From Gemmatimonadota bacterium (lineage in GTDB: Bacteria; Gemmatimonadota; Gemmatimonadetes; Longimicrobiales; RSA9): a stretch of DNA of 64,000 nucleotides. Positions 1 through 38,295 of the stretch are shown piece by piece. The position numbers were made by a program, and so were the translations under genes. Numbering within the stretch: position 1 is the stretch's first letter; every line of letters begins with the position of its first letter. The notes under the pieces are model-generated. The model saw only the letters and a program-made list of their open reading frames with translations, searched no databases and had not been told where the DNA came from. Location of the stretch: positions 1 to 64,000 of the forward strand of contig JBDLIA010000007.1 of the NCBI GenBank assembly GCA_039715185.1, given 5' to 3'.

Positions 1-135
1 CTGCCGCTGCACAGAAGCGGCGCGGCGCGCTGGACGCGCGACTCGCTCGTGCCCTGGCCCGTCGAGGCACGGGCGCGCGAAGCGCTCGAGGCCGACGCCG
101 AGACAGCCGAACAAGCGGCGGCCGGCGCGGGGTAG
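1..135 (+). CDS. C-terminal end of an unidentified protein (partial)
   Basis: An open frame enters from the left edge and ends at a TAG at 133-135, giving 44 residues. The tail is rich in Ala, Arg and Glu and ends in an Ala/Gly run. It contains no motif I recognise, so no function is proposed. The composition fits a coding C-terminus in a GC-rich genome, and the next gene lies on the opposite strand, so this is probably the end of a plus-strand gene. Confidence 0.4.
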   Translation: MPLHRSGAARWTRDSLVPWPVEARAREALEADAETAEQAAAGAG

Positions 136-22795: not shown

Positions 22796-22821
22796 GGCTG
22801 GGCGCGCGTTGATGCGTTCCG

Positions 22822-22837
22822 CGTTTCCGCGGAAACG
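22822..22837. repeat. 16-bp palindromic repeat, copy 1
   Basis: Perfect palindrome CGTTTCCGCGGAAACG in the gap between convergent genes. It is followed by TTTCGGGTGCC, a flank also seen in copies 2 and 3. Confidence 0.85.
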
Positions 22838-22863
22838 TTTCGGGTGCCAAAGCCGCCCGGGCG

Positions 22864-23568
22864 TTAGTTCCCGTCGGGGATGAACTCCCAGCGGCCTTGA
22901 ACGCGGGCGGAAACGGCTACGTTCTGCGGGTCCAGCATGAAGGTATCGCCGGCCCTCAATGCCTGAATCGCTACAGGGCCAATCCCTGGTGCCGGGTCGA
23001 GCCGATCGGTCGTAAGCAGCAGGAGTGGTCCCAGCCGGCCACCGGCGGCTTCGGCCATCGCGGCCGCGTCCTCGCGCGCGGCGGCCACCGCACTCGCCAG
23101 CGCCAGACGCCTGAGCGCGTGCATCTCTGAGGAGGAGGAGTATCCGACTCCTCCGATCGTCGCTCCGGCGTCGGTCCCCGCGTTCACGAGGCGCCCCGTC
23201 TCGCCGAGAATGTGCGTCCGAGCGCGCACGGTCGTGTTGGCTCGGTAGCCTTTGAATTCCCGGTCGCCGTTTCTCTTGTGTTCCCAGTGCGGAGAGACTG
23301 CCAATCCAATCCGCTCGATCTCCAGGTCCGCCAAGCCCATGGCGCCCAGCGCCGAAATGACTGCCTCCGCCAACTCCGCCGTTCCGTCCACCGCGTCTCC
23401 CGGCGAGTCTTCCACGCGGCTTGCCGAAAACGATACCGTCACCATGTCCGGCGGCACGGTTTGGGTCGACGACCCCGTCACGACGACGGTGGGAGTCTCG
23501 GGCTCCGGCGCTTGAGCGACGCCAACGGCGGGTAGCGCGAATAGCAGGATCGGGGCGGCGTACCTCAT
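22864..23568 (-). CDS. SIMPL-domain (DUF541) exported protein
   Basis: Predicted 234-residue protein with a signal peptide (MRYAAPILLFALPAVGVAQA) and a single SIMPL domain: VVVTGSSTQTVPPDMVTVSFS, then ERIGLAVSPHWEH, FKGYRANTTVRAR, and a closing ALRRLALASAVAAAREDAAAMAEA helix. SIMPL proteins (such as YggE) are periplasmic and linked to oxidative-stress tolerance; their biochemistry is unclear. The start at 23568 is the only one placing the signal peptide at the N-terminus. The stretch between this gene and the flavoprotein upstream holds two copies of the palindromic repeat. Confidence 0.85.
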   Translation of the reverse strand: MRYAAPILLFALPAVGVAQAPEPETPTVVVTGSSTQTVPPDMVTVSFSASRVEDSPGDAVDGTAELAEAVISALGAMGLADLEIERIGLAVSPHWEHKRNGDREFKGYRANTTVRARTHILGETGRLVNAGTDAGATIGGVGYSSSSEMHALRRLALASAVAAAREDAAAMAEAAGGRLGPLLLLTTDRLDPAPGIGPVAIQALRAGDTFMLDPQNVAVSARVQGRWEFIPDGN

Positions 23569-23709
23569 GGGATCTCCCGGATGTGTGACGCGCGGGTTGG
23601 GGACTGCTAATGCTGAAACGCGCATGGAGAGGCAGTGGTGTCTGAAATCGGGGGCGGGCCCGGCGGTTTTGTCACCGCCTCGCGGGCGTACGAGCTGAGA
23701 CGTCCAGGA

Positions 23710-23725
23710 CGTTTCCGCGGAAACG
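23710..23725. repeat. 16-bp palindromic repeat, copy 2
   Basis: CGTTTCCGCGGAAACG followed by TCTCGGGGG, 45 bp before copy 3, between the SIMPL and flavoprotein genes. Confidence 0.85.
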
Positions 23726-23754
23726 TCTCGGGGGACACGCGGCGACGTCTCCCG

Positions 23755-23770
23755 CGTTTCCGCGGAAACG
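23755..23770. repeat. 16-bp palindromic repeat, copy 3
   Basis: CGTTTCCGCGGAAACG followed by TCTCAGGTGCC. It ends 2 bp beyond the stop codon of the minus-strand flavoprotein gene. Confidence 0.85.
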
Positions 23771-23772
23771 TC

Positions 23773-24930
23773 TCAGGTGCCGTCGAAGCGGTCCGGATCC
23801 AGAAACCCAATCGGCAGCTCGGTCGATCCCTCCAGCGCGAGGTCCGCCAGCGCCTCGCCGATCACGGGGGCGAACTTGAAGCCGTGGCCGCTGAAGCCCG
23901 CCGCCACGCTCACGCGCTCGGCGCCAGGCAGCGCGCCAACCAGGAAGTGGCCGTCGGGCGAGTTGGTGTACAGGCAGGTCATGGTGGACAGCACGTCGGT
24001 GCCCGCGCTGGGCAGGTAGCGCGCCACTCCGGGCAGGAAATCCTGGTCTTCGGGCGGGGCCGGCCCCCGATCGACGGTGTCCGGATCGGCCTCGGGTCCG
24101 GGCACGTGGCGACCGACCTTGATGCCGGCGCGCTCCGGCATGGCCGACGAGCCGCCCACGATGGGAAATCCGTAGTAGAGTCCGTCGCTCGGGTCCTCGA
24201 TCGCCCAGGCAGCAAAGCGCGGTGGGGAGAACGCGTCCGGGTCGTCGGGCCGCACCCAGCCCAGCACCTGGCGCGTGGGCGTGAGGAACCCCGCCAAGCT
24301 CGGCGCCAGCGCGCTCGTCCAGGCTCCGGCGGCGAGCACCAGGTGCGCGGCTGTATAGCGGCCCGCGTCGGTGCGCACGACCACGCCGTCGCCGGTCTCC
24401 TCCCAGCCCAGAACGCGCTCCCTTGGCCTAAGCTGCGCCCCCGCGTGCCTGGCGAGCCCCCCGTACGCCCCGATCGCCCAGGCCGACAGCACCAGCCCCC
24501 CGCCCGGCTCGAACAGAGCGCGATAGCCGTCCGGCAGCGCAAACTGGGGGAAGCGGTCCGCCGCGTCGCCCAACTCCTCCAGCGGGATCTCGTACGCCCT
24601 CGCCGACGCCTCGGTATCGCGGATCAAATGGCCATCCGCCGGACCGGCATATAGCACGCCTGTCTCGTAGAACACCGTTACGCCGGTGTCCTCTTCCAGG
24701 CGCGACCACCCGGCGCGCGCGCGGCGCAGGAGCGGGACGTAATCGGTGTGCTCGAAGTAGGAGGTGCGAAACAAGCGCGTGTCGCCGCCGCTGGAACCGA
24801 ACTCGTGCGGATGCGCGTGGCGATCGATGCCCAGCACGCGGGCTCCGCGCGCGGCGAGGTGGGCGCAGACGGAGGAGCCCATCGCGCCAACGCCAACCAC
24901 GATGACGTCGAACGACCCTACGGCGATCAT
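23773..24930 (-). CDS. Monomeric sarcosine oxidase/N-methyltryptophan oxidase-like flavoprotein
   Basis: Predicted 385-residue FAD oxidase. It has the N-terminal dinucleotide motif VIVVGVGAMGSS, the flavin-site segment EFGSSGGDTRLFR, and C319 in TCLYTNSPDGHF, matching the cysteine that covalently binds FAD in monomeric sarcosine oxidase. The C-terminal GFSGHGFKFAPVIGE completes the family signature. It oxidises a secondary amine such as sarcosine or an N-methyl amino acid, producing H2O2 and formaldehyde; formaldehyde oxidation to formate would be a metabolic link to formate dehydrogenase, but this is speculation. Cytoplasmic and monocistronic. Confidence 0.9.
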   Translation of the reverse strand: MIAVGSFDVIVVGVGAMGSSVCAHLAARGARVLGIDRHAHPHEFGSSGGDTRLFRTSYFEHTDYVPLLRRARAGWSRLEEDTGVTVFYETGVLYAGPADGHLIRDTEASARAYEIPLEELGDAADRFPQFALPDGYRALFEPGGGLVLSAWAIGAYGGLARHAGAQLRPRERVLGWEETGDGVVVRTDAGRYTAAHLVLAAGAWTSALAPSLAGFLTPTRQVLGWVRPDDPDAFSPPRFAAWAIEDPSDGLYYGFPIVGGSSAMPERAGIKVGRHVPGPEADPDTVDRGPAPPEDQDFLPGVARYLPSAGTDVLSTMTCLYTNSPDGHFLVGALPGAERVSVAAGFSGHGFKFAPVIGEALADLALEGSTELPIGFLDPDRFDGT

Positions 24931-24961
24931 GCAGGGAGAATAGCCGGCGCCCCGTTTCTCG

Positions 24962-26617
24962 CTACATCGCCTGCAGTGCCAGGCCGAGCAGAACCTGGAT
25001 CAACCGGAAGTGCGACGCCCCGTGGCCCGCTCCGTTCAGGTTGTAGGTGAGCGCGATGGTGATCCCCGTCGTCTCGTCCCACAGCAGGAACGCGCTGCCG
25101 TTGCCCTGGTTGCCGCTGTGCCCCCACGACGTCCGGCCCAGGTAGTTGTACTTGCGGATCCCCACGCCCGCGGCGACCTGGCCCGGAATGCCGCCGTCGT
25201 CGGGAACGTCGGTGAGCATCTCGGCGCGCACCGCGGGCGACAGGAAGTCGCCGAACAACGCGGCGCCCCAGCGCGCCAGCGACTCGGCGTCCATGACGAC
25301 ATCGAGAGGTCCGCCGGACGAGTGGAACGCCGGTCCCACGAACAGGTCCGTGAAGTTGACGATTTGGCCGTTCTGGAAGCTCCAGGTAACCGCGAGCTCG
25401 CCGGGCGGGGTCTGCCAGGCCGGCTGGGCCATACGCAGCGCCAAGGGATCGAACAGGCGCGCGGTGAACAGGTCCGGGACGGTCGACCCGGTCACCGTCT
25501 CGGCGATGATCCCGCCGAGCAGGTAGCCCGTGTTGGACGACTTCCAGGAGGTCCCGGCCTGAAACTCGACGGGGCCCACGAACTGCATGAGCTCCTCCAG
25601 CGTCCACAGGCGCGACAGGTCGGCCACGATGCTGTCGCCGAACCCCACTCCCGAGGTGAAGCTGGCTACGCCGCTGGTGTTCTGGAGTAGCTGCCTGACC
25701 GTGACGTCGCCCGGCACGTTGGCGAAGGAGACCCACGTGCCGACCGAGTCGTCCAGCTCCAGCAGGCCGTCGTCTACCAGGTCGAGCACGAGCCCGCTGA
25801 TCACGGTCTTGGCCACGCTGCCAACGGGCAGCAGCAGGTCGGGGCGCATCACGCTGCTCGAGTCGTTCTGTCCGTAAACGCCCTGCCAGGTCCCCTGCCC
25901 CGGGATGATGATCGCGGCCTGCACCCCGACCACCCCATTCGCCGACGATGTGTCCTCGAGCGCCCACTGGAACGCCTCCGCGGATGCGGCGCTCAGCTCG
26001 AGCGGGATGGCGTCGACCACGGTGTAGGCGCGGCTCGCGCCCATGCCGTCGACCGTCACCGAGATGTCGGCCGTCCCCTCACCCACTGGCGTGACCATGC
26101 CGCTCGCGTCCACGGTGGCGACCGCAGGAGCCGAGCTGGCCCACTCGAGCGCGGTGCGCGTAAAGGGTGCTCCTCCGGCGTCGAAGCCGGACGCCGTGAA
26201 GCGCGAGCGCACGCCCACCGCGAACACCGTGTCGGGCCCGACGATGGCCACCGAGTCGAGCGCCTGCGCGACGGTCAGCTCGAGCGTCTCGGTTTCGCTC
26301 AGCACGGAGGCTCTCACCAGCGCGCTGCCGTTGCCGGTCGCGCTCACCACGCCGGCGTCGTCGACGCGGAAGACGCTGCCGTCGGTGACCGACCAGGTGA
26401 CCGTCCCGTCCGCGCCGGCGGCGAGGCCGGTCACGTTGGCCTCGATCTGGACGGTCTCGCCCAGGAAGGTGAGGGTCGTGGCCGCGGCGGACAGGGTGAT
26501 GACCGGCACCGAACCGCCGCCGGGGCCTCCGGGGCCGGCCGGGTCGTCTCCGCCGCAGGCGGGAGCGGCGGCGGACAGCAGCAGCGTGAGAATCGCGGTC
26601 ATCGGTGGTGCGCGCAT
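24962..26617 (-). CDS. Lipoprotein with Ig-like domains and serine hydrolase domain
   Basis: Predicted 551-residue exported protein with a likely lipobox (AAPACGG). Residues about 35-115 and 118-195 are two BIG2-like Ig domains (VITLSAAATTLTFLGETV; LEWASSAPAVATVDASGMVTPVGEGTA). Residues about 205-550 are a class C beta-lactamase-fold hydrolase. The catalytic S267 and K270 lie in SVAK. The second motif is S360-S-N where Tyr is usual (YxN), and H500 lies in GHSGNQG. The start at 26617 has a GGAG upstream. Loss of the motif-2 tyrosine may alter or abolish the standard mechanism, although SxN occurs in DD-peptidases. Confidence 0.8.
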   Translation of the reverse strand: MRAPPMTAILTLLLSAAAPACGGDDPAGPGGPGGGSVPVITLSAAATTLTFLGETVQIEANVTGLAAGADGTVTWSVTDGSVFRVDDAGVVSATGNGSALVRASVLSETETLELTVAQALDSVAIVGPDTVFAVGVRSRFTASGFDAGGAPFTRTALEWASSAPAVATVDASGMVTPVGEGTADISVTVDGMGASRAYTVVDAIPLELSAASAEAFQWALEDTSSANGVVGVQAAIIIPGQGTWQGVYGQNDSSSVMRPDLLLPVGSVAKTVISGLVLDLVDDGLLELDDSVGTWVSFANVPGDVTVRQLLQNTSGVASFTSGVGFGDSIVADLSRLWTLEELMQFVGPVEFQAGTSWKSSNTGYLLGGIIAETVTGSTVPDLFTARLFDPLALRMAQPAWQTPPGELAVTWSFQNGQIVNFTDLFVGPAFHSSGGPLDVVMDAESLARWGAALFGDFLSPAVRAEMLTDVPDDGGIPGQVAAGVGIRKYNYLGRTSWGHSGNQGNGSAFLLWDETTGITIALTYNLNGAGHGASHFRLIQVLLGLALQAM

Positions 26618-26816
26618 GAAGGCTCCGTCACGGGCAGGTGCGTGATGCTCGCCCCTACCCTCACCCGCGCGCGCCCACGCGTCCATGAACGCGATCTGAG
26701 GAACCGCGGACGCCTTGGGACTGGCCGCGCAAGACCTTTGGCCGTCTAAACTTGTCGGGTTTCTGAGGGCAAACTGAGGAGGCCCGGGAACGTGGCGGAG
26801 CGCCGGCGGCCGCGCC

Positions 26817-28568
26817 TCAGGGCCCGACGCGGGCCATGGTCTCGGCGAGCCGGCCCTCGGCCGGCGCGGCCAGGTACTCACGCAGGGGGGCCCACACCGG
26901 ATCCGAGCGCAGGCCCTTCACGGTGAGCGTCGAAGGCCTGGCAAGCTGCTCGGCCACGAGCGCCGCGGCGCGCTCGAAGTCCCCGATCGAGGTAAAGATC
27001 TCCGCCGCGATGACGCGCAGATAGGACGCGGTCAGCGCGTCGCCTTGCGCGGGGAACTCCTCGAGGATGCGGTTGGCCTGGCGCCGCGCCCTGCGGACGT
27101 CCCCCGCCCCGGCGTACGCCAGGCCCAGGATTCCCTGAACGGTCGGGACACCGTCCCACGCACCGGGCCCGTGCGCCCGGGGCGCCAGCTCCTCTACCAG
27201 CCTCGCGTACTCGGTGCGCGCCTCGTCGGCGCGGCCCGAGGACGCCAGCAGCCACGCCCTGCCGAGCCGGACGATGGTGCTACCCGAGTTCGCGTCGATC
27301 CCCTCCCAATCGCTCGACGGCCCCAGCATCCTGGCCAGTTCGCGGATCGAGAGCGCGAGCTCCGTGGGACTGCCGTGGCCCGCTCGGGCGGCCTCCTCCA
27401 GGATCGCGCGGGCGCCGTTCGGGTCGCCGCCGAGCCGCGCGTGCATCAACGCCCGCCGCAAGTACGCGGGCAGGTGCTCCGGGTCGAGGGCGATGGCCTT
27501 TCGATACAGCGCGTCGGCCCGGTCGAAGTCCCTGAGGCGCTCGTGGTTCAGGGCCAGCGCCCAGGTGGCCGGTACCGAGAAGGGGTCGAGCTCCAGGACG
27601 CGGCCGAACGCGCGATTGGACTCCAGCCAGCGCCCGAGCCGACGGTAGGCGCCGCCCAGCGCCAGGTGCACCCGGGGCTCGCCCGGCAGGAGGTCGCGCG
27701 CCGTCTCCAGCGAGTACAGAGCCTCGTCGAAGCGTCGGTCGAAGTGCTGGGACCGGCCCAGGGCCAGCCACGCCTCCCCCGAGTGCGGGGTCCGCTCGAT
27801 CGCGGCGCGCGCCGCCGTGCCCGCCTCCGCGATCAACGCCGGATCGCGCTCCCTCCAGCCGCGCTCGGCGCGAGTCCCGGCCAGATACGCGCGCGCATTG
27901 GCGAAAGTCGGATCCAACTGAATCGCACGCGTGAGCAGCCTGTCCGCCTCACGCAGCGAGCCCTCTCCCTCCCCCTGGAGGAGCACCGTGGCGCGCACGT
28001 AGGCGGTCCACGCCTCTGGCACGACCGTTCCGGGGTCGACCAGCGGGTCCGCCACGGCGCGCAATCCCGCGCCGCTCCGGAGGCCTTCGTTCGCATCCGC
28101 GTCGGTCAACGTGCCGCGCGCCGTTACGCCCACGAGAAAGGCTCCCGCGATCACCGCGGCCGTGCGCCAGCGGCGGGAGCCGAGCGTCCGCGGCGCCGAC
28201 CGCGCGTGCCGGTCGCGCGCGCTGTCCCACGCGGCCGCCGTGACGTCGCCCACGAAGCGGTACCCGCGCCCGCGCTGGGTAACTATGTAGCCGGGCGACC
28301 TGGCGTCGTCGTCCAGCGCCGTCCGCAGCGCGCGCACGCACGTGTTCAGGCGATCGTCGAACCCGACGCGGTGCCCTCCCCAGCAGGCCTCGCGCAGCTC
28401 CGCCCGGGTCACGATTCTGCCGGGGTGCTCAAGCAGGTGGGAGAGCACCGAGCTGGGCAGCGGGGGCAACGGGACGGGGTTTCCGTCGCGCCACAGGCTC
28501 TGGCTCGCCGGGTGGAACTCGAAGGGACCGAACCGGACCACGTTGCCGGTAGGGAGAGGGCGGCTCAT
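26817..28568 (-). CDS. CadC-like winged-helix membrane regulator with TPR domain
   Basis: Predicted 583-residue protein. Residues about 10-107 are an OmpR/CadC winged helix (VRFGPFEFHPASQSLWRDG, then LNTCVRALRTALDDDARSPGYIVTQRGRGYRFVG). One membrane helix follows at about 135-152. Residues about 175-560 are TPR repeats, so the sensor faces the periplasm. Such one-component regulators transduce envelope signals directly to DNA. It is divergent from the lipocalin-like gene at 28709, an obvious candidate target through the shared 140-bp region. Confidence 0.85.
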   Translation of the reverse strand: MSRPLPTGNVVRFGPFEFHPASQSLWRDGNPVPLPPLPSSVLSHLLEHPGRIVTRAELREACWGGHRVGFDDRLNTCVRALRTALDDDARSPGYIVTQRGRGYRFVGDVTAAAWDSARDRHARSAPRTLGSRRWRTAAVIAGAFLVGVTARGTLTDADANEGLRSGAGLRAVADPLVDPGTVVPEAWTAYVRATVLLQGEGEGSLREADRLLTRAIQLDPTFANARAYLAGTRAERGWRERDPALIAEAGTAARAAIERTPHSGEAWLALGRSQHFDRRFDEALYSLETARDLLPGEPRVHLALGGAYRRLGRWLESNRAFGRVLELDPFSVPATWALALNHERLRDFDRADALYRKAIALDPEHLPAYLRRALMHARLGGDPNGARAILEEAARAGHGSPTELALSIRELARMLGPSSDWEGIDANSGSTIVRLGRAWLLASSGRADEARTEYARLVEELAPRAHGPGAWDGVPTVQGILGLAYAGAGDVRRARRQANRILEEFPAQGDALTASYLRVIAAEIFTSIGDFERAAALVAEQLARPSTLTVKGLRSDPVWAPLREYLAAPAEGRLAETMARVGP

Positions 28569-28708
28569 GTTCCTGCAACGCCCGCCTCGGCGCCGTTATG
28601 ACGCCCCGATCGCCAGGACGCAGCGGTCGGGGGCGTCGACCGCCACGGCGGTCTCCCCGAACCGGTGACCGGACGCACCGTTCGGTCCCCGACCCCAGGA
28701 GGTATGCG

Positions 28709-29230
28709 ATGTCGCTCAGGAACAACGCCGCTCTCCCGTTGGCCGCGCTCGCCGTGTTGGCGCTCGTTGCCGCACCCGGCCAATCGGTCGCCCAGGACGA
28801 CGCCATGGCCGAGGACCAGTCCGTCGAGGGCGCGTGGGTGGTCACGAACTGGGAGGGCCCGGAGGAGTCCTACGAGGCCCAACCGGGGATGTTCATCTTC
28901 ACCGGCACGCACTACGCGATCATGTACGTGAACGCGAGCGAAGCCCGCGGCGGCTACGACGCCGAGGCCGGGATGACCGACGAAGAACGGACCCACGCGT
29001 ATCAGACCCTCGTGGCGAACGCGGGTCGCTACTCGGTGGAAGGCGACCAACTCACGACGATCGCCTATGTGGCGAAGGACATGAACTACATGGGCGACTT
29101 CCCCGGCAACGCGCAGCCCTACACGATCCACTTCGCGGGCGACGTGCTGCACATCTCCTACGGGGAAGACACGTTTCGCGCCGGCTGGACTGCGACGCTG
29201 CAGAAGGTGGAAGGGATGTCGATGGAGTGA
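28709..29230 (+). CDS. Secreted lipocalin-like protein
   Basis: Predicted 173-residue exported protein with a signal peptide (ending QSVAQ). The mature domain starts VEGAWVVTNWEG and contains PGMFIFTGTHYAIMYVN and a closing RAGWTATLQKVE, the pattern of small lipocalin-like (GxW) domains in uncharacterised secreted proteins. The start at 28709 has CAGGAGG nearby. It is transcribed away from the CadC-like regulator and ends with a strong hairpin terminator. Ligand unknown. Confidence 0.75.
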   Translation: MSLRNNAALPLAALAVLALVAAPGQSVAQDDAMAEDQSVEGAWVVTNWEGPEESYEAQPGMFIFTGTHYAIMYVNASEARGGYDAEAGMTDEERTHAYQTLVANAGRYSVEGDQLTTIAYVAKDMNYMGDFPGNAQPYTIHFAGDVLHISYGEDTFRAGWTATLQKVEGMSME

Positions 29231-29255
29231 TCTACGGCTGGCGTAGAAGCGGAAA

Positions 29256-29292
29256 GAGAAAAGGGACGGGGCCGCTACCCCGTCCCTTTCTC
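29256..29292. terminator. Strong bidirectional hairpin terminator
   Basis: GAGAAAAGGGACGGGG (29256-29271) pairs with CCCCGTCCCTTTCTC (29278-29292) around a 6-nt loop, with one bulged A. It lies between convergent genes, with U-rich tails on both strands, and should stop transcripts from both sides. Confidence 0.85.
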
Positions 29293-29333
29293 GTGCCGAG
29301 CGTCGCCGAGAAGGAGCGACGTTGGTCTCGCGC

Positions 29334-29930
29334 TCAGTCCTCCGTCACCGGCCTGGGCGCCACCACCATCGCCTCGTCCAGAACCACTGTCACGACGGTG
29401 CCGGCGTTCAGGTAGGCCTCGTGCTCCTTGGTGGCGAGCGCCACGCCGGTGCCCGCGGCGGCGCCTGCAGCCGCGCCCAGCACCACGTCCTTCGCGTCGC
29501 CGCCCACGATCCCGCCGATGACCGCGCCGGCCGCCGCGCCGCCGCCGATCTTCTTGCCCTTGTCGACCATCTCGGAGCGCTTCATGGCGTTCACCACGAC
29601 CGGCTCCGTGTGGACCTCGAAGGGGGCCCCGTTGATGTCGATGCTGGTCAGGCGAATACCGATCGTCGGCGGGTCCTCGCTGGCCGACGTGACCTCACCC
29701 CGCACCGCCGTCCCGACCGGCAGGATGACCTGTCCGTCGGCCGACAGCGGCTCGGCCAGCACGCCCGCGAACGCGCTTCCGGGCGCGTGCGCGTCGGAGC
29801 TCAGCCGTTGGCCGATCTCGATCGCGAGGGAAGTTTCTGCCGGAATTACCGTTGATGCTTCAGCGGTGCTGCAGGCCGCCAGGAACGCCGCAATCGCCGC
29901 CGTCCCAACGACTTCCGTGATGCTCCTCAT
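29334..29930 (-). CDS. Glycine-zipper lipoprotein
   Basis: Predicted 198-residue protein with a lipobox (FLAACS). An N-terminal beta-rich part (VIPAETSLAIEIGQRLSS, then ILPVGTAVRGEVTSA) precedes a glycine zipper at about 130-165 (KKIGGGAAAGAVIGGIVGGDAKDVV and onward) and a final beta strand. It resembles envelope proteins of the OmpA-associated glycine-zipper 2TM/SLP group. The GGAGG at proper spacing selects the ATG at 29930 rather than the one four codons upstream. Probably an outer-membrane structural lipoprotein. Confidence 0.8.
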   Translation of the reverse strand: MRSITEVVGTAAIAAFLAACSTAEASTVIPAETSLAIEIGQRLSSDAHAPGSAFAGVLAEPLSADGQVILPVGTAVRGEVTSASEDPPTIGIRLTSIDINGAPFEVHTEPVVVNAMKRSEMVDKGKKIGGGAAAGAVIGGIVGGDAKDVVLGAAAGAAAGTGVALATKEHEAYLNAGTVVTVVLDEAMVVAPRPVTED

Positions 29931-29990
29931 GTCCACCTCCATGCCGTGTGCCCCACCCCACGCGGCATGGCCGCAAGTTCTCTGCCGCGG

Positions 29991-32612
29991 CTACTCGCCG
30001 CGCAGCACCCGCGCCGGATCCACGCGGCTGGCCCGAATCGCGGGCGTCAGCGCGGCGACGACCCCCACGGCGAGGAGCGCGCCGGCGCCGGCGGCGAGGC
30101 TCGGCGGATCGACCGGCTGCACACCCCACACCAGCCCGGCCGCGGCGCGCGCGGCGAGCGTTGCCAATCCGACCCCCACCGCGACGCCGATCAGCACCTG
30201 GACGGACTCGCGGCGCATCACCTCGCGCACGAGGCGGCCGCGGTCGGCGCCCAGCGCCATGCGGATGCCGAACTCGCGTGAGCGCCTGGCGACCTCGTAG
30301 GACACGACGCCGTACACGCCGACCGCGCCGATCGCGAGCGCGAGAGCGGCCAGCGCGGCCATGAAGAAGCGCAGCCGGAGGACGTCCGCGATTGAGGCGT
30401 CCAGCGCCCGACGCAGCGTCGTCGGCTGCAGCACCACGGCCGTGGCGTCCAACTCTTCCAGCGTGCGGCGCACCGTCTCGAGCAGGGCGGCTGGGTCGCC
30501 CGAGGTGCGGAAGGTCAGGACCCCACCGGGCCAAAGAGCTGCCCACTGCTCGTAGGGGCGATAGACGACCCGCGGCGCGGGCGCGCGCACTCCCTCGATG
30601 GGCACGTTATCGACTACGCCCACCACGGTGGACCAGTCGTCGTCGAAGTTGCCCATCACCGACTTCCCCAAGGCGCTCTCGCCCGGCCAAACTTCTTCGG
30701 CGAACGCGCGGTTGACGAGCGTCACGGGGGCGGCGCCGGCCCTGTCTTCCGGACCAAATCCCCTTCCCTCCACGACCCGCATCCCCATGGTCGTCAGGTA
30801 CTCGTCGGTGATGGCCCTGTAGTAGGCGGAGAGGGCGTTCGCCCCGTCCAGCTCGGGGCGGTCTCGCACCCCGGTGCTGCCCTGGATGCCGCCGTCGCGG
30901 AGCGGAAGCCGCAGCCCCATGGCCGCGTACTCTACGCCCGGCAGCGCTCGGGCGGCGTCAACGGCGCGGCGCGCGAAGCCGTGGCCGCCGCCGGGCGTCG
31001 CGCGATCCACGCCCACGGTCACCGCGCCCACCCCCGCCGGATCCAGGCCGGTGTCCACGCGGTAGAGCTGCGCGGCGCTACGTGCGAACAGAGTAGCCCC
31101 CGCCACCAGCGTCACGGCGATGACGACCTGCGCCGACACCAGAGCCGCCTGCAGTCGCCCGGACCGTCCCGCGGCCGCCCCGCCCTCGGCGCGGGCGCCC
31201 GGCTGGAGGTTGGTCGGCCGGTCCCTGAGCAGCCTGTGCGCGGGGGCCAGCGCCACCAGGGCGCCGAGCAGCGTCGCGCCGGCGAGTGCCGCCACGAGCA
31301 GCCGCCAGTCCAGGCCGATGGTGGTCTCGAAACCGCCCCCCAGGGGGAGCCGGCTCACCACCGCTCCGAACCCGAGATACGCCAGCGCCACCCCGACGCC
31401 CCCCGCGATCCCCGACAGCAGCACCGACTCGGCAACGATCTGGCGCACCAGTCGCGCGCGGCCCGCGCCCAGCGCGGCGCGCAGCCGCATCTCGTGGGCG
31501 CGATCGATCATGCGTCCGAGTAGCAGCGCGGAGACGTTGGCCAGCGCCATGACGAGCAGCAGCGCGGTGGCCAGCGTCAGGAGGCGCAGCAGCGGCCCCA
31601 CCTCGCCGAACAGATATGTGCGCAGCGGCACGCTGAACGCGCCGCGGGTCTTGTCCCACTCCTCCGAATAGGTGAAGCGCTCACCGAGCCGGGCCGCGAT
31701 GCCCTGGATCTCCGCCTCCACCTGGGCGTTGGACGCGCCGTTCGCGCGGCGGCCGACCAGAATGAGCCAGCCGTTACCGGCGTAGGCGCCGTCGGCAGGG
31801 TCCAGGTCCAGCGGCACCCACGCCCGCTGATCCGGGGACGGGAAGAAGAAGCCGGCGGGCATCACCCCGACGATGGTCCGCTGGACGCCGTCGACGCTGA
31901 CGAGTCGGCCGACGACTCCGGGGTTGCCTCCGTAGCGCTGCTGCCAGAGCCCGTGGCTCAGCACGATTACCGGCTCGGCCCCCGGACGATCCTCGCCCTC
32001 GCGGAAGGTCCGGCCCAGCAGCGGCGCGGCGCCGAGCACGTCGAACAGGCCGGCGGACCCCATCACGGCCGCGACGGGCGCTCGGCCCCGCCCTTCGCCC
32101 AGGGTGACCACCTCGTGCCCGTAGGCCGCCACTTCTTCGAAGGCGACCACGCCCTCGCGTACGTGGTCGAACTCCGAACCGCGCCAGTTCTGGTCCGACC
32201 AGAACACCTCGACACGGTCACCGGCCGGGAACGGGAACGGCCGCACGAGGAGCGCGTGGATGGCGCCGTAGAGGGCGAGCGTCCCGCCTATGCCCAGCCC
32301 CATCGTCGTGACGGCCACGGCCGTGAACCCGCGCGCTCGCCGGAGCCCCCGCGCGCCGATGCGCAGGTCGCGCCACAGGTCGTCCAGCCAGACGAGGCCC
32401 CACGACGCGCGGGCCCGTTCCCTGTGGTGCTGGACGCCCCCGAAGCGCCTCAGCGCCTCGGTGCGGGCCCGGTCGGGGTCAAGGCCTTCGGCGGCGAGCT
32501 TTTCCACCTCGCGCTCCAGGTGGAAGGCCAGCTCCTCGTCCAGCTCGCGCTCCATGCGGCGCCGCCGGAACAGCGCCGAGAGACGAGTGGCCATATCGCT
32601 CGTGATGCCCAT
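29991..32612 (-). CDS. ADOP-type FtsX/MacB-like permease
   Basis: Predicted 873-residue ABC permease without ATPase, of the acidobacterial duplicated orphan permease group. The N-terminal cytoplasmic helix bundle (ELDEELAFHLEREVEKLAAEGL, then EALRRFGG) is typical. Two FtsX/MacB units follow, each with a periplasmic MacB-PCD domain and four membrane helices, ending in the canonical PAIRASRVDPARVLRGE. The ATG at 32612 with GGAAGGA fits, and the PadR gene stops 34 bp upstream. PadR-ADOP pairs are a hallmark of Acidobacteriota and Gemmatimonadota; substrates are unknown. Confidence 0.9.
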   Translation of the reverse strand: MGITSDMATRLSALFRRRRMERELDEELAFHLEREVEKLAAEGLDPDRARTEALRRFGGVQHHRERARASWGLVWLDDLWRDLRIGARGLRRARGFTAVAVTTMGLGIGGTLALYGAIHALLVRPFPFPAGDRVEVFWSDQNWRGSEFDHVREGVVAFEEVAAYGHEVVTLGEGRGRAPVAAVMGSAGLFDVLGAAPLLGRTFREGEDRPGAEPVIVLSHGLWQQRYGGNPGVVGRLVSVDGVQRTIVGVMPAGFFFPSPDQRAWVPLDLDPADGAYAGNGWLILVGRRANGASNAQVEAEIQGIAARLGERFTYSEEWDKTRGAFSVPLRTYLFGEVGPLLRLLTLATALLLVMALANVSALLLGRMIDRAHEMRLRAALGAGRARLVRQIVAESVLLSGIAGGVGVALAYLGFGAVVSRLPLGGGFETTIGLDWRLLVAALAGATLLGALVALAPAHRLLRDRPTNLQPGARAEGGAAAGRSGRLQAALVSAQVVIAVTLVAGATLFARSAAQLYRVDTGLDPAGVGAVTVGVDRATPGGGHGFARRAVDAARALPGVEYAAMGLRLPLRDGGIQGSTGVRDRPELDGANALSAYYRAITDEYLTTMGMRVVEGRGFGPEDRAGAAPVTLVNRAFAEEVWPGESALGKSVMGNFDDDWSTVVGVVDNVPIEGVRAPAPRVVYRPYEQWAALWPGGVLTFRTSGDPAALLETVRRTLEELDATAVVLQPTTLRRALDASIADVLRLRFFMAALAALALAIGAVGVYGVVSYEVARRSREFGIRMALGADRGRLVREVMRRESVQVLIGVAVGVGLATLAARAAAGLVWGVQPVDPPSLAAGAGALLAVGVVAALTPAIRASRVDPARVLRGE

Positions 32613-32646
32613 GTCTATCCTTCCACGCGGAGCCCGAAGCGACCGA

Positions 32647-32994
32647 TCAGGTCGCCGCGACGATCCTGTCGACCGCAGCGGACAGCCGTTGCCAGTGCAC
32701 GACCTCGGCGCCGAGCTGTCTTCGTCCTTCAGCCGTAAGCGCATAGTAGCGCGCGCGTCTGTTGTTCTCGGTCGTCGCCCAGGACGACGTGATCCAGCCC
32801 CGCCGCACGAGCCTGTGGAGCGCCGGATAGAGCGCCCCCTGGTTCACCTCCAGCACGGCGCGGGACATGTCCTGAATGCGCTCGCTGATGCCCCAGCCGT
32901 GCAGGGGCTCCAGCGACAGGACCTTCAGGATCAGCAGATCCAGGGTCCCCTTGATCATGTCGTTGCGGGACTTGTCGTCGTTCACGCCGCCCAT
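32647..32994 (-). CDS. PadR-family transcriptional regulator
   Basis: Predicted 115-residue PadR winged-helix protein. The signature reads KGTLDLLILKVLSLEPLHGWGI, then VNQGALYPALHRLVRRGWI and a basic wing (NNRRARYYALTAEGRRQL). It lies directly upstream of and co-oriented with the ADOP permease, and presumably represses it. AGAGGAAGG precedes the ATG. Confidence 0.9.
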   Translation of the reverse strand: MGGVNDDKSRNDMIKGTLDLLILKVLSLEPLHGWGISERIQDMSRAVLEVNQGALYPALHRLVRRGWITSSWATTENNRRARYYALTAEGRRQLGAEVVHWQRLSAAVDRIVAAT

Positions 32995-33036
32995 ACGAGA
33001 CGCCTTCCTCTAGGTTTCAGAGAGAACATTGAGCGA

Positions 33037-33059
33037 CTCCTCTCTGGAATCAAGAGGAG
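33037..33059. promoter_or_regulatory. Inverted repeat upstream of padR
   Basis: CTCCTCT (33037-33043) and AGAGGAG (33053-33059) flank a 9-nt loop, between the PadR start and the stop of the SDR gene. It could be a PadR operator or a weak terminator for the SDR gene; there is no T run, so the operator reading is slightly favoured. Confidence 0.35.
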
Positions 33060-33080
33060 GTTGCGCTTCGCCGACTATCC

Positions 33081-33944
33081 TCAGGCCGCGACCAGTTGCT
33101 CGAAGTACTCGGCGATCCTGCGGGTGCCGTAACGCGGCGCGATCAGGTCCTCATTGGAGACGCGTGCGTAGAAGGCCGTCAGGTCCGCCACCCGCGGGTT
33201 TATGGGCCGGATGACCGCGCCGACCAGCTTCGCCGCGAGGGAGGGGACGACGCGGATCTTCTGCGGCGCGCCGAGGGCCGCCAACGCGAACTCCGCGATC
33301 TGGCGCCTGGACAACACCTCTGGCCCGCCGACGGCCGCCTCGCCGACTCCGGCCTCTTCGACGGCATCTACGCAGACGCGCGCCAGGTCCGCCTCGTGGA
33401 TCGGGTTCGTGCGCGCCGAGCCGTCCCCGATCAACGGCACCGACCCCTTGCGCGCAAAATCCAGCAACGTCGCGAAGGCCGAGAAAAACCCGACGGGCCT
33501 GATGACGGCGTGGGACAGCTTCGAGGCGCGCAGGACATCGACCACCGCTTCATGGGCGGCGACATATCGCAGATGCCCGAGCGCTTCGTGACCGGCTACA
33601 CCGACATAAACGAAGCGGCGTACGCCCTCGCCCGTCGCGGCCCCTATCAGGTTACGATTTGCCGGCAAATCGACGCGGTGGAAGCTCCGACGACCGCGGC
33701 GCAGATCGGGAAGGACGCTCGCCCCCGCGCAGGAGAACACGACGTCGATACTGGCGCAGGCCCGTCCTAGCCCAGCCGCGCTGAGCGCGTCTCCGCGGTG
33801 CGCCTCGACCCGTTCTACGATATCGTCCGGCAGTGCCCGGTGCCGGACGAGCGCGCGGACCTGGTGGCCTCGCGCGAGCGCCTCACGGACCACGTGGCTG
33901 CCCAGCGCCCCGGTCGCGCCGGCGATCAAAACGCGAAGAGACAT
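33081..33944 (-). CDS. NAD(P)-binding atypical SDR (NmrA-like)
   Basis: Predicted 287-residue Rossmann protein. The dinucleotide motif is VLIAGATGALGSHVV at the N-terminus, followed by VRALVRHR. A mid segment reads GVRRFVYVGVAGHEA, and HAVIRPVGFFSAF matches the atypical SDR/NmrA-like group, which lacks the YxxxK of classical enzymes. The C-terminal part is helical and hydrophobic (AAKLVGAVIRPINPRVADLTAFYA). The start at 33944 is preferred; a longer ATG at 33968 would overlap the divergent GNAT gene. Function: unknown reductase, epimerase or redox sensor. Confidence 0.85.
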   Translation of the reverse strand: MSLRVLIAGATGALGSHVVREALARGHQVRALVRHRALPDDIVERVEAHRGDALSAAGLGRACASIDVVFSCAGASVLPDLRRGRRSFHRVDLPANRNLIGAATGEGVRRFVYVGVAGHEALGHLRYVAAHEAVVDVLRASKLSHAVIRPVGFFSAFATLLDFARKGSVPLIGDGSARTNPIHEADLARVCVDAVEEAGVGEAAVGGPEVLSRRQIAEFALAALGAPQKIRVVPSLAAKLVGAVIRPINPRVADLTAFYARVSNEDLIAPRYGTRRIAEYFEQLVAA

Positions 33945-33966
33945 CGCCCCTCCCGAGTCGAACGAC

Positions 33967-34557
33967 ATGACGAGCGTATCCGCGAGTCCCCGACGCCTCA
34001 AGTTCGAGCCGCTCACGGCAGAGCTGCTCCCAGACCTGGAGCGGCTGTTCGGCGAACGCGGGGCGTGCGGCGGCTGCTGGTGCATGTACTACCGCCTGAT
34101 GAGGCCCGAGTACGAGGCGAGCAAGGGCGAAGGGAACCGGCTGAAGCTGAGGGCGCTCGTGGAAGAGGGGGCTCCCACGGGGGTCCTGGCGTACGCGGAG
34201 GGGGAGCCGGTCGGCTGGTGTTCGGTGGCGCCGCGGGAGCAGTTCGTCCGCCTGGCCCGGACACGCACCATGAAGTCGCTGGACGGGCGCCCGAGTTGGG
34301 TAATCCTGTGCCTGTTCGTCGCGCCCCACGCGCGCGGTCTGGGGGTGTCGAAGCGCCTGCTGGCCGCCGCCGCGCGGCACGCGCTGGACCGGGGCGCTGC
34401 TCTCGTGGAGGCCTACCCCATCATCCCGACCAAGCCGAACGTGCCTCCGGTGTTCGCCTTCAACGGCCTGCTGTCGGCCTATCTGGCCGCGGGTTTCGAG
34501 GAAGTCGGCCGGCCCTCGGAGACGCGCGCCTACGTGCGCTACGAGGGCGGCGGCTGA
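33967..34557 (+). CDS. GNAT-family N-acetyltransferase
   Basis: Predicted 196-residue GNAT. The acetyl-CoA motif is LFVAPHARGLGVSKRLLAAAARHA. An N-terminal GERGACGGCWCMYYR cluster of three cysteines is characteristic of a GNAT subgroup with possible metal or redox sensing. The tail YLAAGFEEVGRPSETRAYVRYE completes the fold. It is divergent from the SDR gene with only 22 bp between the starts, so the two promoters overlap. Substrate unknown. Confidence 0.85.
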   Translation: MTSVSASPRRLKFEPLTAELLPDLERLFGERGACGGCWCMYYRLMRPEYEASKGEGNRLKLRALVEEGAPTGVLAYAEGEPVGWCSVAPREQFVRLARTRTMKSLDGRPSWVILCLFVAPHARGLGVSKRLLAAAARHALDRGAALVEAYPIIPTKPNVPPVFAFNGLLSAYLAAGFEEVGRPSETRAYVRYEGGG

Positions 34558-34584
34558 CCGGCGGCCGGCCGCCCCCTGGCGGCG

Positions 34585-35346
34585 TCAGGGAGTGGCTTCC
34601 TCGGCCGCGTCGATCTCCGCCAGCTTGTCGATGGCGTTCTGGTTCTGCGGGTTCAGTTCCAGGCTCTTGCGGTAGAAGATCCGCGCGGGCCCGTTCATCC
34701 CGGCCGTCATGTAACCCTCGGCCAGGCTGTCCCAGACGTTGGCCGACTCCGGGTTGTGCTCTGTGTTCAGGTGGAAGATCCGGATCGCGCCTTCGTGATC
34801 GCCCTCTCGCAGCAACTGGTAGCCCATGACGTTCAGGCTCCGCTCGGAGAAGTTGTAGGCTCCGCGCCCGTAGTAGCGCTCGCGTAGCGCCCCGTACTTG
34901 GCCACGGCTGCGTCGATGCCCTCGGCGCGGTAGGTCTCCATGAGCGCTTCCTCGAGCACCTGCGGCCGTGCGCGGCCGGCGTGGCAGGTGAAGCACCACA
35001 TGTTCACCTTCTCACCGGTCGGCTCGATGTTGCCCAGATGCTCGTTGACCGAGCCGAGCAGCCTGAGCATTTCGCGCGCGGTGCGCTTCTGCACCTTCTC
35101 GTCCGACGGAAAGTCGTAGGTGCTGAGCGGCTGGCCCTCCTCGCCCACGTGGCAATAGGAGCAGCGCACGCCGAGCGACCGGGTGAAGCCTGTCATGACG
35201 GCGCGTAGCCTGTTCGGCGGAAAGTCCGCGGGAAGGTCCTGCAGGTTCTCCGCGCGCTCGGGCCAGCTCCAGCCCTGGGCTGCGGCGGGCCTCGCCGGAG
35301 CCAGCGTCGCTACGAGCAGCAGGGGGAGGTAGACGTGGCGATGCAT
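34585..35346 (-). CDS. Di-haem reaction-centre-type cytochrome c with TPR tail
   Basis: Predicted 253-residue exported protein with a signal peptide (ending AAAQG). CXXCH motifs at C62-H66 (CSYCH) and C118-H122 (CFTCH) bind two haems; the preceding helix MTGFTRSLGV supplies the usual methionine ligand, as in photosynthetic reaction-centre cytochrome subunits. The C-terminal half (about 155-250) is TPR-like (AIRIFHLNTEHNPESANVWDSLAEGYM). Such short members occur in non-phototrophs and likely carry electrons in the periplasm. No pufLM genes are here. Confidence 0.85.
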   Translation of the reverse strand: MHRHVYLPLLLVATLAPARPAAAQGWSWPERAENLQDLPADFPPNRLRAVMTGFTRSLGVRCSYCHVGEEGQPLSTYDFPSDEKVQKRTAREMLRLLGSVNEHLGNIEPTGEKVNMWCFTCHAGRARPQVLEEALMETYRAEGIDAAVAKYGALRERYYGRGAYNFSERSLNVMGYQLLREGDHEGAIRIFHLNTEHNPESANVWDSLAEGYMTAGMNGPARIFYRKSLELNPQNQNAIDKLAEIDAAEEATP

Positions 35347-35646
35347 CGGCACTCTCGCTTGCGTGCGGTTCACTTCGCGGCGGTCCGGGACCCAGATCCC
35401 GGTTACGGGCCGCGGGCATGGGTGAAATGCAACGCCACAGGCGCGCGAGTGCAACGCCGCCTTGCCAAGGCCGTGCACAGGCCAGGTCAATTCCGTGCAA
35501 AGACGGGTGGGCTGGATCGGCGCGACCCCTTCCGCGAAGGCTTCTTCCTGCGCCAGTCAGTACTCCCATCGCGGGCCGCCGCCGGGTCGTGATAGGTTGC
35601 GGTGAACCTTCTCTGCTGCGATTCGGACATACACCTCGGGAGATCC
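35347..35646. other. 300-bp divergent intergenic region
   Basis: Contains the promoters of the cytochrome gene (minus) and the TPR gene (plus). I see no small gene, RNA structure, dyad or palindromic repeat in it. Confidence 0.5.
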
Positions 35647-37245
35647 ATGTCGCATCGCTCGTTGCCGATCCTCGGCTCCGCATCCCGCGTGCTCTCCGCC
35701 GCCGCCATCTTGCTGGCCACGTCGGTCTCCGGGCTGGACGCACAGCACGTCGAAGAGGGCCCGGTCACCATCGACGGCCTGGGCACCCTACACTTCCCGA
35801 CCTCTGGGTCCCCCCACGCGCGCGGGCACTTCCTGCGGGGGGTGCTGCTCATGCACAGCTTCGAATACGAGGACGCGGCGGAGGCATTCCGCCTGGCGCA
35901 GGAGGCCGACCCGAGCATGGCCATGGCGTACTGGGGCGAGGCGATGACGCACACGCACCCGGTCTGGAACGAACAGGACGTGGACGCCGCCCGAGAGGCT
36001 CTGGGCCGGCTCGCGCCGAGCGCGGAGGAAAGGCTCGCCGCGGCGGCCGACGCCCGCGAGAGGGCGTGGCTGGAGACGGTCGAGACTCTGTACGGCGAGG
36101 GCGAGAAGGCAGCCCGAGACACCGCCTTCAGCCTGGCGATGGGCGCGCTGGCCGACGCCTACCCCGACGACTTCGAGGCACAGGCGTTCTACGCGCTGTC
36201 GCTGCTCGGGCTGAGCCAAGGTGCCCGTGTAGTACCCACTTACATGCGCGCCGGCGCGATCGCCCTCGAGCTCCTCGAGAAGAACGGCGATCACCCCGGC
36301 GCCGCGCACTACGTGATCCACTCCTTCGACGACCCCGCCCACGCGCCCATCGGCCTGCGCGCCGCGCGCGCCTACTCGCGCATCGCCCCGAACGCGGGCC
36401 ACGCGCAGCACATGACCAGCCACATCTTCCTGGCGAGCGGCATGTGGGGGGACGTCGTGGCCGCCAACGAGCGGGCCATGGCGGTGGTCAACGCGGACCT
36501 CGCGGCCCGCGACCTGCCGCCCTCGAGCTGCGGCCACTACAACATCTGGTTGGCGTACGGCTACCAGCAGCAGGGCCGCCTGACGGACGCGGAGACGCTG
36601 GTCGGCGGGTGCCTGGAGAACAGCGGGGACGAGCGCCTGTCCGAAGACCGGCGCGCCAGAAACGGGCGCTCGTTCGCCATCATGCGGACGTTCTATCTAA
36701 CGGACGCGGAGGCCGCCGCGGGCTTCCCGGCCGACGCCGAACTGCCCGCACGGGCCGAGGGCCTGGCCGGCGCCATGTACGCCTTCGGCACCGGCCTGGC
36801 GGCTGCACGCCGGGGCGACATCGACGCGCTGCGGGCGGCGCTGGACGCGGTGTCGTCCGCGGGTGCGGACATCGCCGACTGGACGTCCGGCTACCGGCCG
36901 ATCTGGAAGAGCACGCTCGAGGCGCTCGCGTACGAGCTCGACGGCGACCTGGACGCGGCCATAGCGGTCGCGGAGCGCGGCGCGGACACCGAAGCGGCGA
37001 TGCCGATCGACTTCGGGCCTCCATACTCGTTCAAGCCCCCCAGGGAGCTGGAGGGCGAACTGCTGCTCCGGGCGGGTCGCTCCGAGGAGGCCCTGGCGGC
37101 CTTCGAACTGGCGCTCGGCCGCACCCCCAAGCGGGCGGCTGCGCTGCGCGGGTACGAGGCCGCGGCGGCGGCCGCAGGGCTGATCGCGCGGGCCGAGTGG
37201 GCACGCGCGACGCTCGACGAGATCACCGCCGAGGATGAGGAATAG
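35647..37245 (+). CDS. Exported TPR protein
   Basis: Predicted 532-residue protein with a signal peptide (SGLDAQHVEEG). It is almost entirely TPR-like helices: FLRGVLLMHSFEYEDAAEAFRLAQEADPSMAMAYWGEAM, then a central HYVIHSFDDPAHAPIGLRAARAYSRIAPNAGHAQHMTSH region with six histidines, and C-terminal ALAAFELALGRTPKRAAALRGYEAA. This family is common as secreted TPR proteins in Gemmatimonadota-like bacteria; the histidine cluster may bind metal. The ATG at 35647 follows GGGAGA. The stop is 6 bp before the palindrome array. Confidence 0.8.
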   Translation: MSHRSLPILGSASRVLSAAAILLATSVSGLDAQHVEEGPVTIDGLGTLHFPTSGSPHARGHFLRGVLLMHSFEYEDAAEAFRLAQEADPSMAMAYWGEAMTHTHPVWNEQDVDAAREALGRLAPSAEERLAAAADARERAWLETVETLYGEGEKAARDTAFSLAMGALADAYPDDFEAQAFYALSLLGLSQGARVVPTYMRAGAIALELLEKNGDHPGAAHYVIHSFDDPAHAPIGLRAARAYSRIAPNAGHAQHMTSHIFLASGMWGDVVAANERAMAVVNADLAARDLPPSSCGHYNIWLAYGYQQQGRLTDAETLVGGCLENSGDERLSEDRRARNGRSFAIMRTFYLTDAEAAAGFPADAELPARAEGLAGAMYAFGTGLAAARRGDIDALRAALDAVSSAGADIADWTSGYRPIWKSTLEALAYELDGDLDAAIAVAERGADTEAAMPIDFGPPYSFKPPRELEGELLLRAGRSEEALAAFELALGRTPKRAAALRGYEAAAAAAGLIARAEWARATLDEITAEDEE

Positions 37246-37251
37246 AGGGCG

Positions 37252-37349
37252 CGTTTCCGCGGAAACGTCCCGGCGTGTTTTCGGCCGATCCACGTTTCCG
37301 CGGAGACATCCAAACATGAGCGCGCCCGGAATGCGTTTCCGCGGAAACG
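37252..37349. repeat. Array of three palindromic repeats at 41-bp period (copies 4-6)
   Basis: Copy 4 (37252-37267) and copy 6 (37334-37349) are perfect CGTTTCCGCGGAAACG. Copy 5 (37293-37308) differs at two positions in the right half (AGACA). Starts are exactly 41 bp apart. The array fills the gap between the TPR stop and the GTG start at 37357, so copy 6 occupies the ribosome-binding region. Confidence 0.85.
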
Positions 37350-37356
37350 TCGGCGC

Positions 37357-38295
37357 GTGAGCTCGCCCGCCTTCATCGACGGCGACGAGGTCCGCCGCCG
37401 CCTGCCCATGGCCGCCGCCATCGACCTGATGGCCACCACCCTGCGCGCGTTCTCCGAGGGCCGCGCGGTGCAGCCGCCGCGCGGCTTCTTCCGAGTCCCC
37501 GACGGCTCCGGGGTGGTCGGCCTCATGCCCGCGTTCGTGCCCGACCCCGACGTGGTCGGCGTGAAGGTGATCTCAGCCTTCCACGGCGCCGACCCCGCGC
37601 ACGACGGCGCGGTGCTGCTGTTCGACATGGCGGGCCGGCTGATCGGCGTGGTGGACGCCATCGCCGTCACCGAGATCCGCACGGCGGCCGTCTCGGGGCT
37701 AGCGACCCGGCTACTCGCGCGCGAAGACGCCGGTGATCTGGCGATTCTGGGCAGCGGAGTGCAGGCCCGTTCGCACCTGGAGGCAATGCTGGCCGTGCGA
37801 GACGTGCGGCGCGTGCGCGTGTGGAGCCGCCGCGCCGAAAGGGCGCGCACCTTTGCCGAGTGGGCGGGCCAGGCGCACGGCGTCGCGGTGGAGCCAGTCG
37901 CGTCCGCCGAGGACGCCGCCCGCGAAGCCGACATCCTGTGCACCGTCACGTCATCGCCCGAGCCCGTGCTCCTGGGCGAGTGGGTCTCGCCCGGCGCGCA
38001 CGTGAACGCCGTGGGCGCTTTCAGCGCCGCGACCCGCGAGGTGGACACAGCGCTGGTCGCCGGGTCCGCGTTCTACGTGGACTCGCGGGAATCGGCCGAT
38101 CTGCAGGCCGGCGACTGGCTGCTGGCGCAGGAGGAGGCCGGGCTCGACGCGAGCCACATCCGGGCGGAGTTGGGGGAGGTGGTGGCGGGGGCACAGGGGC
38201 GATCGCGCGACGACGAGATCACGGTGTTCAAGTCGCTGGGGCTAGGGGTGGAGGACGCGGCGGCGGGGCGCGCCGTGCTTGCCCGCGACGCCTAG
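37357..38295 (+). CDS. Ornithine cyclodeaminase/mu-crystallin family protein
   Basis: Predicted 312-residue Rossmann enzyme. Family marks: GVKVISAFHG near 68, then VVDAIAVTEIRTAAVSGLATRLLAR, the NAD(P)-binding loop LAILGSGVQARSHLEAML, GAHVNAVGAF, and a closing DDEITVFKSLGLGVED. Members include ornithine or alanine dehydrogenase-like and ketimine reductases. The start is a GTG at 37357; no Shine-Dalgarno precedes it because copy 6 of the palindrome lies there. Confidence 0.85.
   Translation: MSSPAFIDGDEVRRRLPMAAAIDLMATTLRAFSEGRAVQPPRGFFRVPDGSGVVGLMPAFVPDPDVVGVKVISAFHGADPAHDGAVLLFDMAGRLIGVVDAIAVTEIRTAAVSGLATRLLAREDAGDLAILGSGVQARSHLEAMLAVRDVRRVRVWSRRAERARTFAEWAGQAHGVAVEPVASAEDAAREADILCTVTSSPEPVLLGEWVSPGAHVNAVGAFSAATREVDTALVAGSAFYVDSRESADLQAGDWLLAQEEAGLDASHIRAELGEVVAGAQGRSRDDEITVFKSLGLGVEDAAAGRAVLARDA

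Follow-up and report, generated by a model that had tools for sequence, protein, structure and literature searches.

The 64,000-nt stretch of a Gemmatimonadota genome analysed here (contig C7, positions 1 to 64,000; hereafter the window) carries repeated copies of a perfect 16-bp palindrome, CGTTTCCGCGGAAACG, which is probably the cognate DNA site of the DUF222-HNH proteins (PF02720 and PF01844; the 13E12 repeat family). The proteins are predicted to bind it directly, as dimers. The palindrome is associated with DUF222-HNH genes across phyla, its lineage-specific forms match the presence of DUF222 genes in two other genomes, G032 and G059, and the DUF222 domain resembles ParB and Noc in fold and sequence profile. 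Widespread and multicopy, DUF222-HNH proteins occur in mycobacteria (as REP13E12) and in many uncultured phyla, and their function is not known; if the assignment is true, the palindrome would be the first known DNA site for the family. In the literature searched, which comprised few subscription journals and mostly titles and abstracts, we found no prior report of a DUF222 recognition site, function or relationship to ParB; one report associates the DUF222/13E12 family with sequence diversity (DIVE, PMC10589994).

Five exact copies of CGTTTCCGCGGAAACG begin at 22822, 23710, 23755, 37252 and 37334 of the window and a two-mismatch copy begins at 37293, as an earlier note on this DNA had recorded. 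With up to three mismatches allowed, the window holds 6 matches against 0.49 expected, a number reached by none of 100 shuffles, and all six fall between predicted genes (gene calls and open reading frames (ORFs)), so that the note's description of a wholly intergenic repeat recurring beyond chance holds. The sites, given with one flanking base on each side, and the one gene fragment of the candidate recogniser family in the window are as follows.

22821–22838: 18-bp site G-CGTTTCCGCGGAAACG-T, exact match with a flanking purine and pyrimidine (R..Y), in a convergent gap downstream of a SIMPL gene (22864–23625, minus strand).
23709–23726: 18-bp site A-CGTTTCCGCGGAAACG-T, exact match with R..Y flanks, between the SIMPL gene and a FAD-oxidoreductase gene.
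23754–23771: 18-bp site G-CGTTTCCGCGGAAACG-T, 45 bp from the preceding site and 2 bp off the 3′ end of the FAD-oxidoreductase gene (23773–24930, minus strand).
37251–37268: 18-bp site G-CGTTTCCGCGGAAACG-T, opening an array of three sites at 41-bp spacing that lies between a TPR gene and an ornithine-cyclodeaminase gene.
37292–37309: degenerate site A-CGTTTCCGCGGAGACA-T, middle of the 41-bp array, with 2 mismatches and R..Y flanks retained.
37333–37350: 18-bp site G-CGTTTCCGCGGAAACG-T, third in the array, 7 bp ahead of the ornithine-cyclodeaminase gene (37357–38295, plus strand).
1–135, plus strand: DUF222-HNH gene truncated where contig C7 begins, so that its C-terminal tail is left; the family is the candidate recogniser of the palindrome.

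The genome-wide count that the earlier note had proposed as a check finds 40 exact copies in the source genome (GCA_039715185.1, hereafter G000; a 3.66 Mb draft in 252 contigs, with surveyed DNA 69% GC and 88% coding), where a Markov model expects 0.002, and copies also occur in relatives and in other phyla. A reversed control pattern has zero matches across the whole of G000. Decayed copies are few (six with 1 mismatch, four with 2), and this scarcity points to selection or recent homogenisation. The true repeat unit is 18 bp, RCGTTTCCGCGGAAACGY, with perfect dyad symmetry: in G000 a purine precedes and a pyrimidine follows CGTTTCCGCGGAAACG, without exception among 76 flanking bases, and conservation further out is slight. 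The right flank TYTCRGG that the earlier note saw in three copies does not extend the unit, as the flank alignment conserves just the one purine before and the one pyrimidine after. Although the surveyed DNA is 88% coding, 26 of the 40 sites are intergenic (P = 3e-15). The spacings described earlier for the window are correct (41 + 41 bp in the group near 37.25 kb, 45 bp for the pair near 23.7 kb); other site pairs lie 36–108 bp apart, and the 41-bp spacing is therefore not general.

Several lines of evidence connect this unit to DUF222-HNH proteins. First, the genes themselves carry it. The G000 protein encoded on contig C160 has a PF02720 domain (DUF222, E 1.1e-28) and then an HNH motif (E 1.6e-7, both by Pfam), and the genome's list of PF02720 matches places further intact or longer copies on C15, C127 (two), C60 and C50; the frame-0 translation of window positions 1–135, ending in ARWTRDSLVPWPVEARAREALEADAETAEQAAAGAG*, matches the C terminus of a DUF222-HNH ORF at locus L022. 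In G000 these genes have one or two in-frame copies of the 16-mer, with more in their flanks, and in relatives with a single copy it usually lies inside a DUF222-HNH gene, where it codes for V-S-A-E-T within the motif VSAETSRRLACDA. Scanning GTDB genomes gave at least 130 exact cellular matches; the in-gene and flank counts that follow refer to the matches listed. Among these, 42 of 130 fall inside DUF222-HNH genes, often with two or three and up to three per gene, in Gammaproteobacteria, Rokubacteria, Myxococcota, Acidobacteriota, Actinobacteria and Gemmatimonadota. Three in-gene positions recur relative to the HH of the HNH motif, at about −140 amino acids (a disordered linker), −63 (VSAET) and about +62 (the tail). 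Because the linker and tail protein sequences look unrelated between proteins, it is the DNA, rather than the protein, that stays conserved at these two positions.

The R..Y flanks, expected by chance in about 25%, accompany 40 of 42 copies inside DUF222 genes, 64 of 88 other cellular copies and 4 of 19 viral ones. Where an R..Y site lies outside DUF222 genes, 24 of 29 genomes have PF02720, versus 3 of 20 where the site is non-conforming (Fisher P = 5e-6, or 6e-7 with genomes split by site number); the genomes compared lack phylogenetic independence, and the rule that delimits the first group comes from G000. The three PF02720-positive control genomes carry 13, 4 and 5 sites. The viral matches (IMG/VR), which violate the rule, look like chance, and a viral origin of the 16-mer was rejected. 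Plasmid-borne DUF222 genes, taken as an independent sample, gave two weak matches only.

Second, the palindrome comes in dialects. G059 belongs to the same genus as G054 and G055 and has zero copies of CGTTTCCGCGGAAACG and seven of CGATTCCGCGGAATCG. At 20 DUF222 loci picked by protein alone, blind to palindromes, and searched over the gene and 300 bp on each side, we found 10 perfect 14-bp palindromes, all of the form [CG]NTWC[AC]G, compared with zero of that form in 54 kb of neighbouring DNA; they include CTTTCCGCGGAAAG in G046, GTTACCGCGGTAAC in G032, GATTCCGCGGAATC in one G054 gene, GGTTCCGCGGAACC in G024 and GTTTCAGCTGAAAC in G020. As a test of prediction, GTTACCGCGGTAAC, read from the DUF222 genes of the complete genome G032, has 16 exact and several near copies across that genome, where the flanks again read RC..GY; G036, a congener without DUF222, has none. 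We propose that protein and site diverge together, which would give the lineage dialects. A hybrid half-site form, GTTTCAGCGGAAAC, was also seen in four tandem units of about 102 bp at 774–780 kb of G069 (Pseudohongiella), and is present in a DUF222 gene of the same genome.

Third, the predicted structure of the protein suggests how it might read such a site. AlphaFold models (pLDDT 73.5 for a full protein, 86.7 for the isolated DUF222 domain of a second) show a helical domain, then a linker, then HNH. When the isolated domain was compared with the PDB by Foldseek, the top ten hits were all ParB or Noc, including complexes of Noc with its binding site NBS, at probabilities of 0.99–1.00; searching the PDB by sequence alone, with the domain trimmed, gave nothing useful. 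A ParB helix-turn-helix profile (E ≤ 10) matches 37 of 89 DUF222 ORFs versus 34 of 11570 others, ranking DUF222 proteins directly behind the true ParBs among 11,659 ORFs, and Pfam HTH_ParB matches 4 of 31 DUF222-HNH members (best E 0.0028). The DUF222 part thus resembles, at the level of the domain, a ParB/Noc-type helix-turn-helix. The site RCGTTTCCGCGGAAACGY itself has the TTTC/GAAA frame of published parS, TGTTTCACGTGAAACA, and NBS, TATTTCCCGGGAAATA (PMC7383237). The HNH catalytic residues H415, H416, N430, H439 and H443 are invariant in 31 proteins, and nuclease activity is therefore selected.

Fold, profile, site frame and invariant HNH are independent lines, and because of them we propose the following mechanism. 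Two DUF222-HNH copies would each bind one half of RCGTTTCCGCGGAAACGY, in the manner of ParB dimers on parS and Noc dimers on NBS, and the bound dimer would bring its conserved HNH nuclease to the palindrome. The site is carried in the nuclease's own gene (in the pre-HNH linker, the VSAET codons and the C-terminal tail), in the flanks of the gene and at scattered positions, most of them intergenic. The nuclease may serve homing-like spread, Noc-like marking or regulation there. As a more tentative proposal, nicking or cutting by HNH might make site-bearing loci recombinogenic and let the multicopy family spread or convert as a homing-like selfish system, a reading that explains the multicopy genes and self-carried sites. 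A broader view, to which we would give a minority chance, is that DUF222-HNH is a ParB/Noc-derived nuclease upholding a lineage-specific network of dozens of chromosomal palindromes with co-evolving dialects, for self-recognition, marking or controlled nicking and not plain parasitism.

Similar to ParB–parS and Noc–NBS, this putative pair combines a ParB/Noc-fold DNA-binding domain with a 16-bp palindrome having a TTTC...GAAA core; NBS are also dispersed across the chromosome, and the dialects parallel the ParB-to-Noc switch in specificity (PMC7383237). The differences are that DUF222-HNH proteins have an HNH nuclease and no ParB CTP-binding domain (ParBc; none when 31 members were searched with Pfam to E 10), that the centre of the palindrome is GC and not CG, that the site lies inside the protein's own gene, and that the genes are multicopy and patchy, with canonical parS and true ParB separately present in several such genomes. 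In one contig of Gemmatimonadetes SS_bin_81, a canonical parS, GTTTCACGTGAAAC, and a DUF222-type palindrome lie 30 bp apart (103–146), and the contig also carries a true ParB gene and two more GTTTCNNNNGAAAC sites at 218 and 245. The proteins found here (PF02720 E 1e-28, plus HNH) belong to the same multicopy family as REP13E12 of Mycobacterium. HNH homing endonucleases share the long, highly specific target, the patchy, multicopy nuclease gene and the intact catalytic residues; unlike a homing gene, which interrupts its own target, the genes here have intact targets in and around them, and the dispersed targets are unoccupied. A defined 18-bp target, a ParB/Noc-type fold and dialects make DUF222-HNH testable by simple binding and cleavage assays, and the pairing shows how a segregation-type DNA-binding domain may have become joined to a nuclease.

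Several observations weigh against DUF222-HNH proteins as the recognisers. Five of the 29 genomes with conforming sites show no DUF222, one of them with 14 sites (G075), which may reflect incomplete metagenome-assembled genomes. VSAET is encoded without the palindrome in many DUF222-HNH genes, those of the multicopy G022 family among them, and the site is therefore not universal in the family. The VSAET codons are by themselves nearly palindromic, so this position alone is weak evidence and the case depends on the copies in linker, tail and flanks. The DUF222 gene found in G059 has its dialect only with 1–2 mismatches, and most dispersed sites are flanked by ordinary-looking chromosomal genes. 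Because single E-values are weak (0.04–0.2 in Foldseek, with none below 0.03; 0.07 for hhalign of DUF222 with ParB, which alone does not settle the link), we hold the ParB/Noc connection to a resemblance between domains. Finally, if the nuclease is active, a chromosome that holds 40 of its sites would have to be protected, or the enzyme tightly controlled or limited to nicking.

The alternative that survives best, although we consider it unlikely, is that the ParB/Noc-type DUF222 protein organises or protects the chromosome through dispersed sites, as Noc does, with HNH secondary, regulated or structural. The earlier note had suggested a nucleoid-protein site, which is close in kind because the best partner carries a ParB/Noc-type DNA-binding domain; the partner now proposed is a DUF222-HNH nuclease. 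Such marking would fit the resemblance to Noc, including its NBS complexes, and explain why dispersed sites persist between ordinary genes. In one lipoprotein gene of G054 and G055, a perfect site stands at different places, each aligned gaplessly to a sequence with 2–4 mismatches in the other genome, as expected of site turnover, and six orthologous sites are identical with flanks 83–95% identical, although these pairs were selected for exactness in both genomes. NBS avoid the terminus (PMC7383237), and in the complete G032 all 16 exact sites fall between 2.07 and 4.03 Mb of the 4.22-Mb chromosome, on both sides of parS (3.117 Mb), with none in the other half. By contrast, G012 and G022 show no origin bias by eye (with parB taken as the origin), so an origin-proximal bias is not general; G069 packs eight exact copies and one near copy into 28 kb; and the in-gene sites of the nuclease would have no role, while its invariant HNH residues show that nuclease activity is selected.

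We think it less likely still that the palindrome is a REP-like or MITE-like element spreading as DNA, with DUF222-HNH in place of RAYT as the mobilising enzyme. REP/BIME elements share the dispersed intergenic palindromes and a DNA-cutting partner whose gene the same palindromes flank, and the REP-like element of the earlier note gains from two genomes with a longer repeat unit around the site. In Pseudohongiella G069 the eight exact copies and the near copy each sit in a repeat roughly 90 bp long, of which there are many copies among varied genes in a 28-kb stretch (2.506–2.534 Mb) that looks rich in cassettes or invaded by repeats. A common tail, GCCGGGCGSCGGCATG, marks about half of the units in G032 and is also present in its DUF222 genes. 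Duplication therefore also creates sites. In G000 and G054/G055, however, there is no longer conserved unit: flanks are unrelated beyond 1–2 bp, the 18-bp palindrome of G000 is perfect with no loop or flanking unit, and the proposed partner is HNH and not a Y1 transposase. Further, in-gene sites align gaplessly to site-free homologs, in a helicase-like protein of G000 (DVSAETSERTP versus DVPADVAERTP) and an M14 peptidase of G054/G055 (VRRVSAETGRP versus VRAASAERGLP), indicating that in the cases examined substitution creates the sites in place. For G000 and G054 we rejected insertion of a mobile 16-mer on the same grounds, and a REP-like element does not fit G000.

It is very unlikely that the sites are operators of an unrelated transcription factor with DUF222-HNH genes merely among its targets. 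The perfect dyad symmetry and tandem arrays (41, 45 and 59–62 bp) are operator-like, and sites lie about 300–420 bp upstream of some DUF222 genes. However, G000 sites occupy convergent, tandem and divergent gaps, 3′ ends and gene interiors with no promoter bias by eye and no consistent relation to promoters; the same palindrome is found in DUF222 genes of unrelated phyla; and dialects follow DUF222 presence within one genus. Of the earlier proposals, a protein binding site as such is supported by the perfect 18-bp symmetry, the few degenerate copies and the gain and loss by point substitution in two lineages, and the regulator's operator array is disfavoured. A coding by-product of the conserved VSAET motif hardly deserves credence: 10 of the 14 positions in GTN TCN GCN GAR ACN are palindromic, and in G012, G018 and G022 conserved AFQLK is what some GTTTCAGCTGAAAC copies encode instead, but the intergenic excess in G000, AT-ending codons (GTT, GAA) in a 69% GC genome and in-gene copies that also read RFRGN in another frame refute it in general, leaving a few single copies for which it holds.

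Geometry also suggested that the palindromes bound mobile gene cassettes such as SIMPL. Pfam confirms the neighbouring genes in the window as SIMPL, FAD oxidoreductase (DAO), a TPR protein, ornithine cyclodeaminase/mu-crystallin and a PBP-like protein; against the cassette model, the genes of contig C16 look ordinary and chromosomal by sequence, and an empty site was not found.

Contig breaks near sites in G000 were set aside as a special signal, being largely explained by repeated DUF222 genes. In G054, many sites lie within about 650 bp of a contig end (C65, C75, C80, C94, C125 and C146) even in the absence of a visible DUF222 gene, a hint that repeats or differences between strains adjoin them. 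G022 has two families of multicopy DUF222-HNH units of about 1.5–1.6 kb with sharp boundaries and 94–99% identity (L079, L082, L085, L086 and L087), one family without the palindrome. Finally, at two loci of marine Gammaproteobacteria (L187 and L192), A's precede the palindrome and a T run follows, so that it may double as an intrinsic terminator; at a third (L243), a second palindrome is followed by T's.

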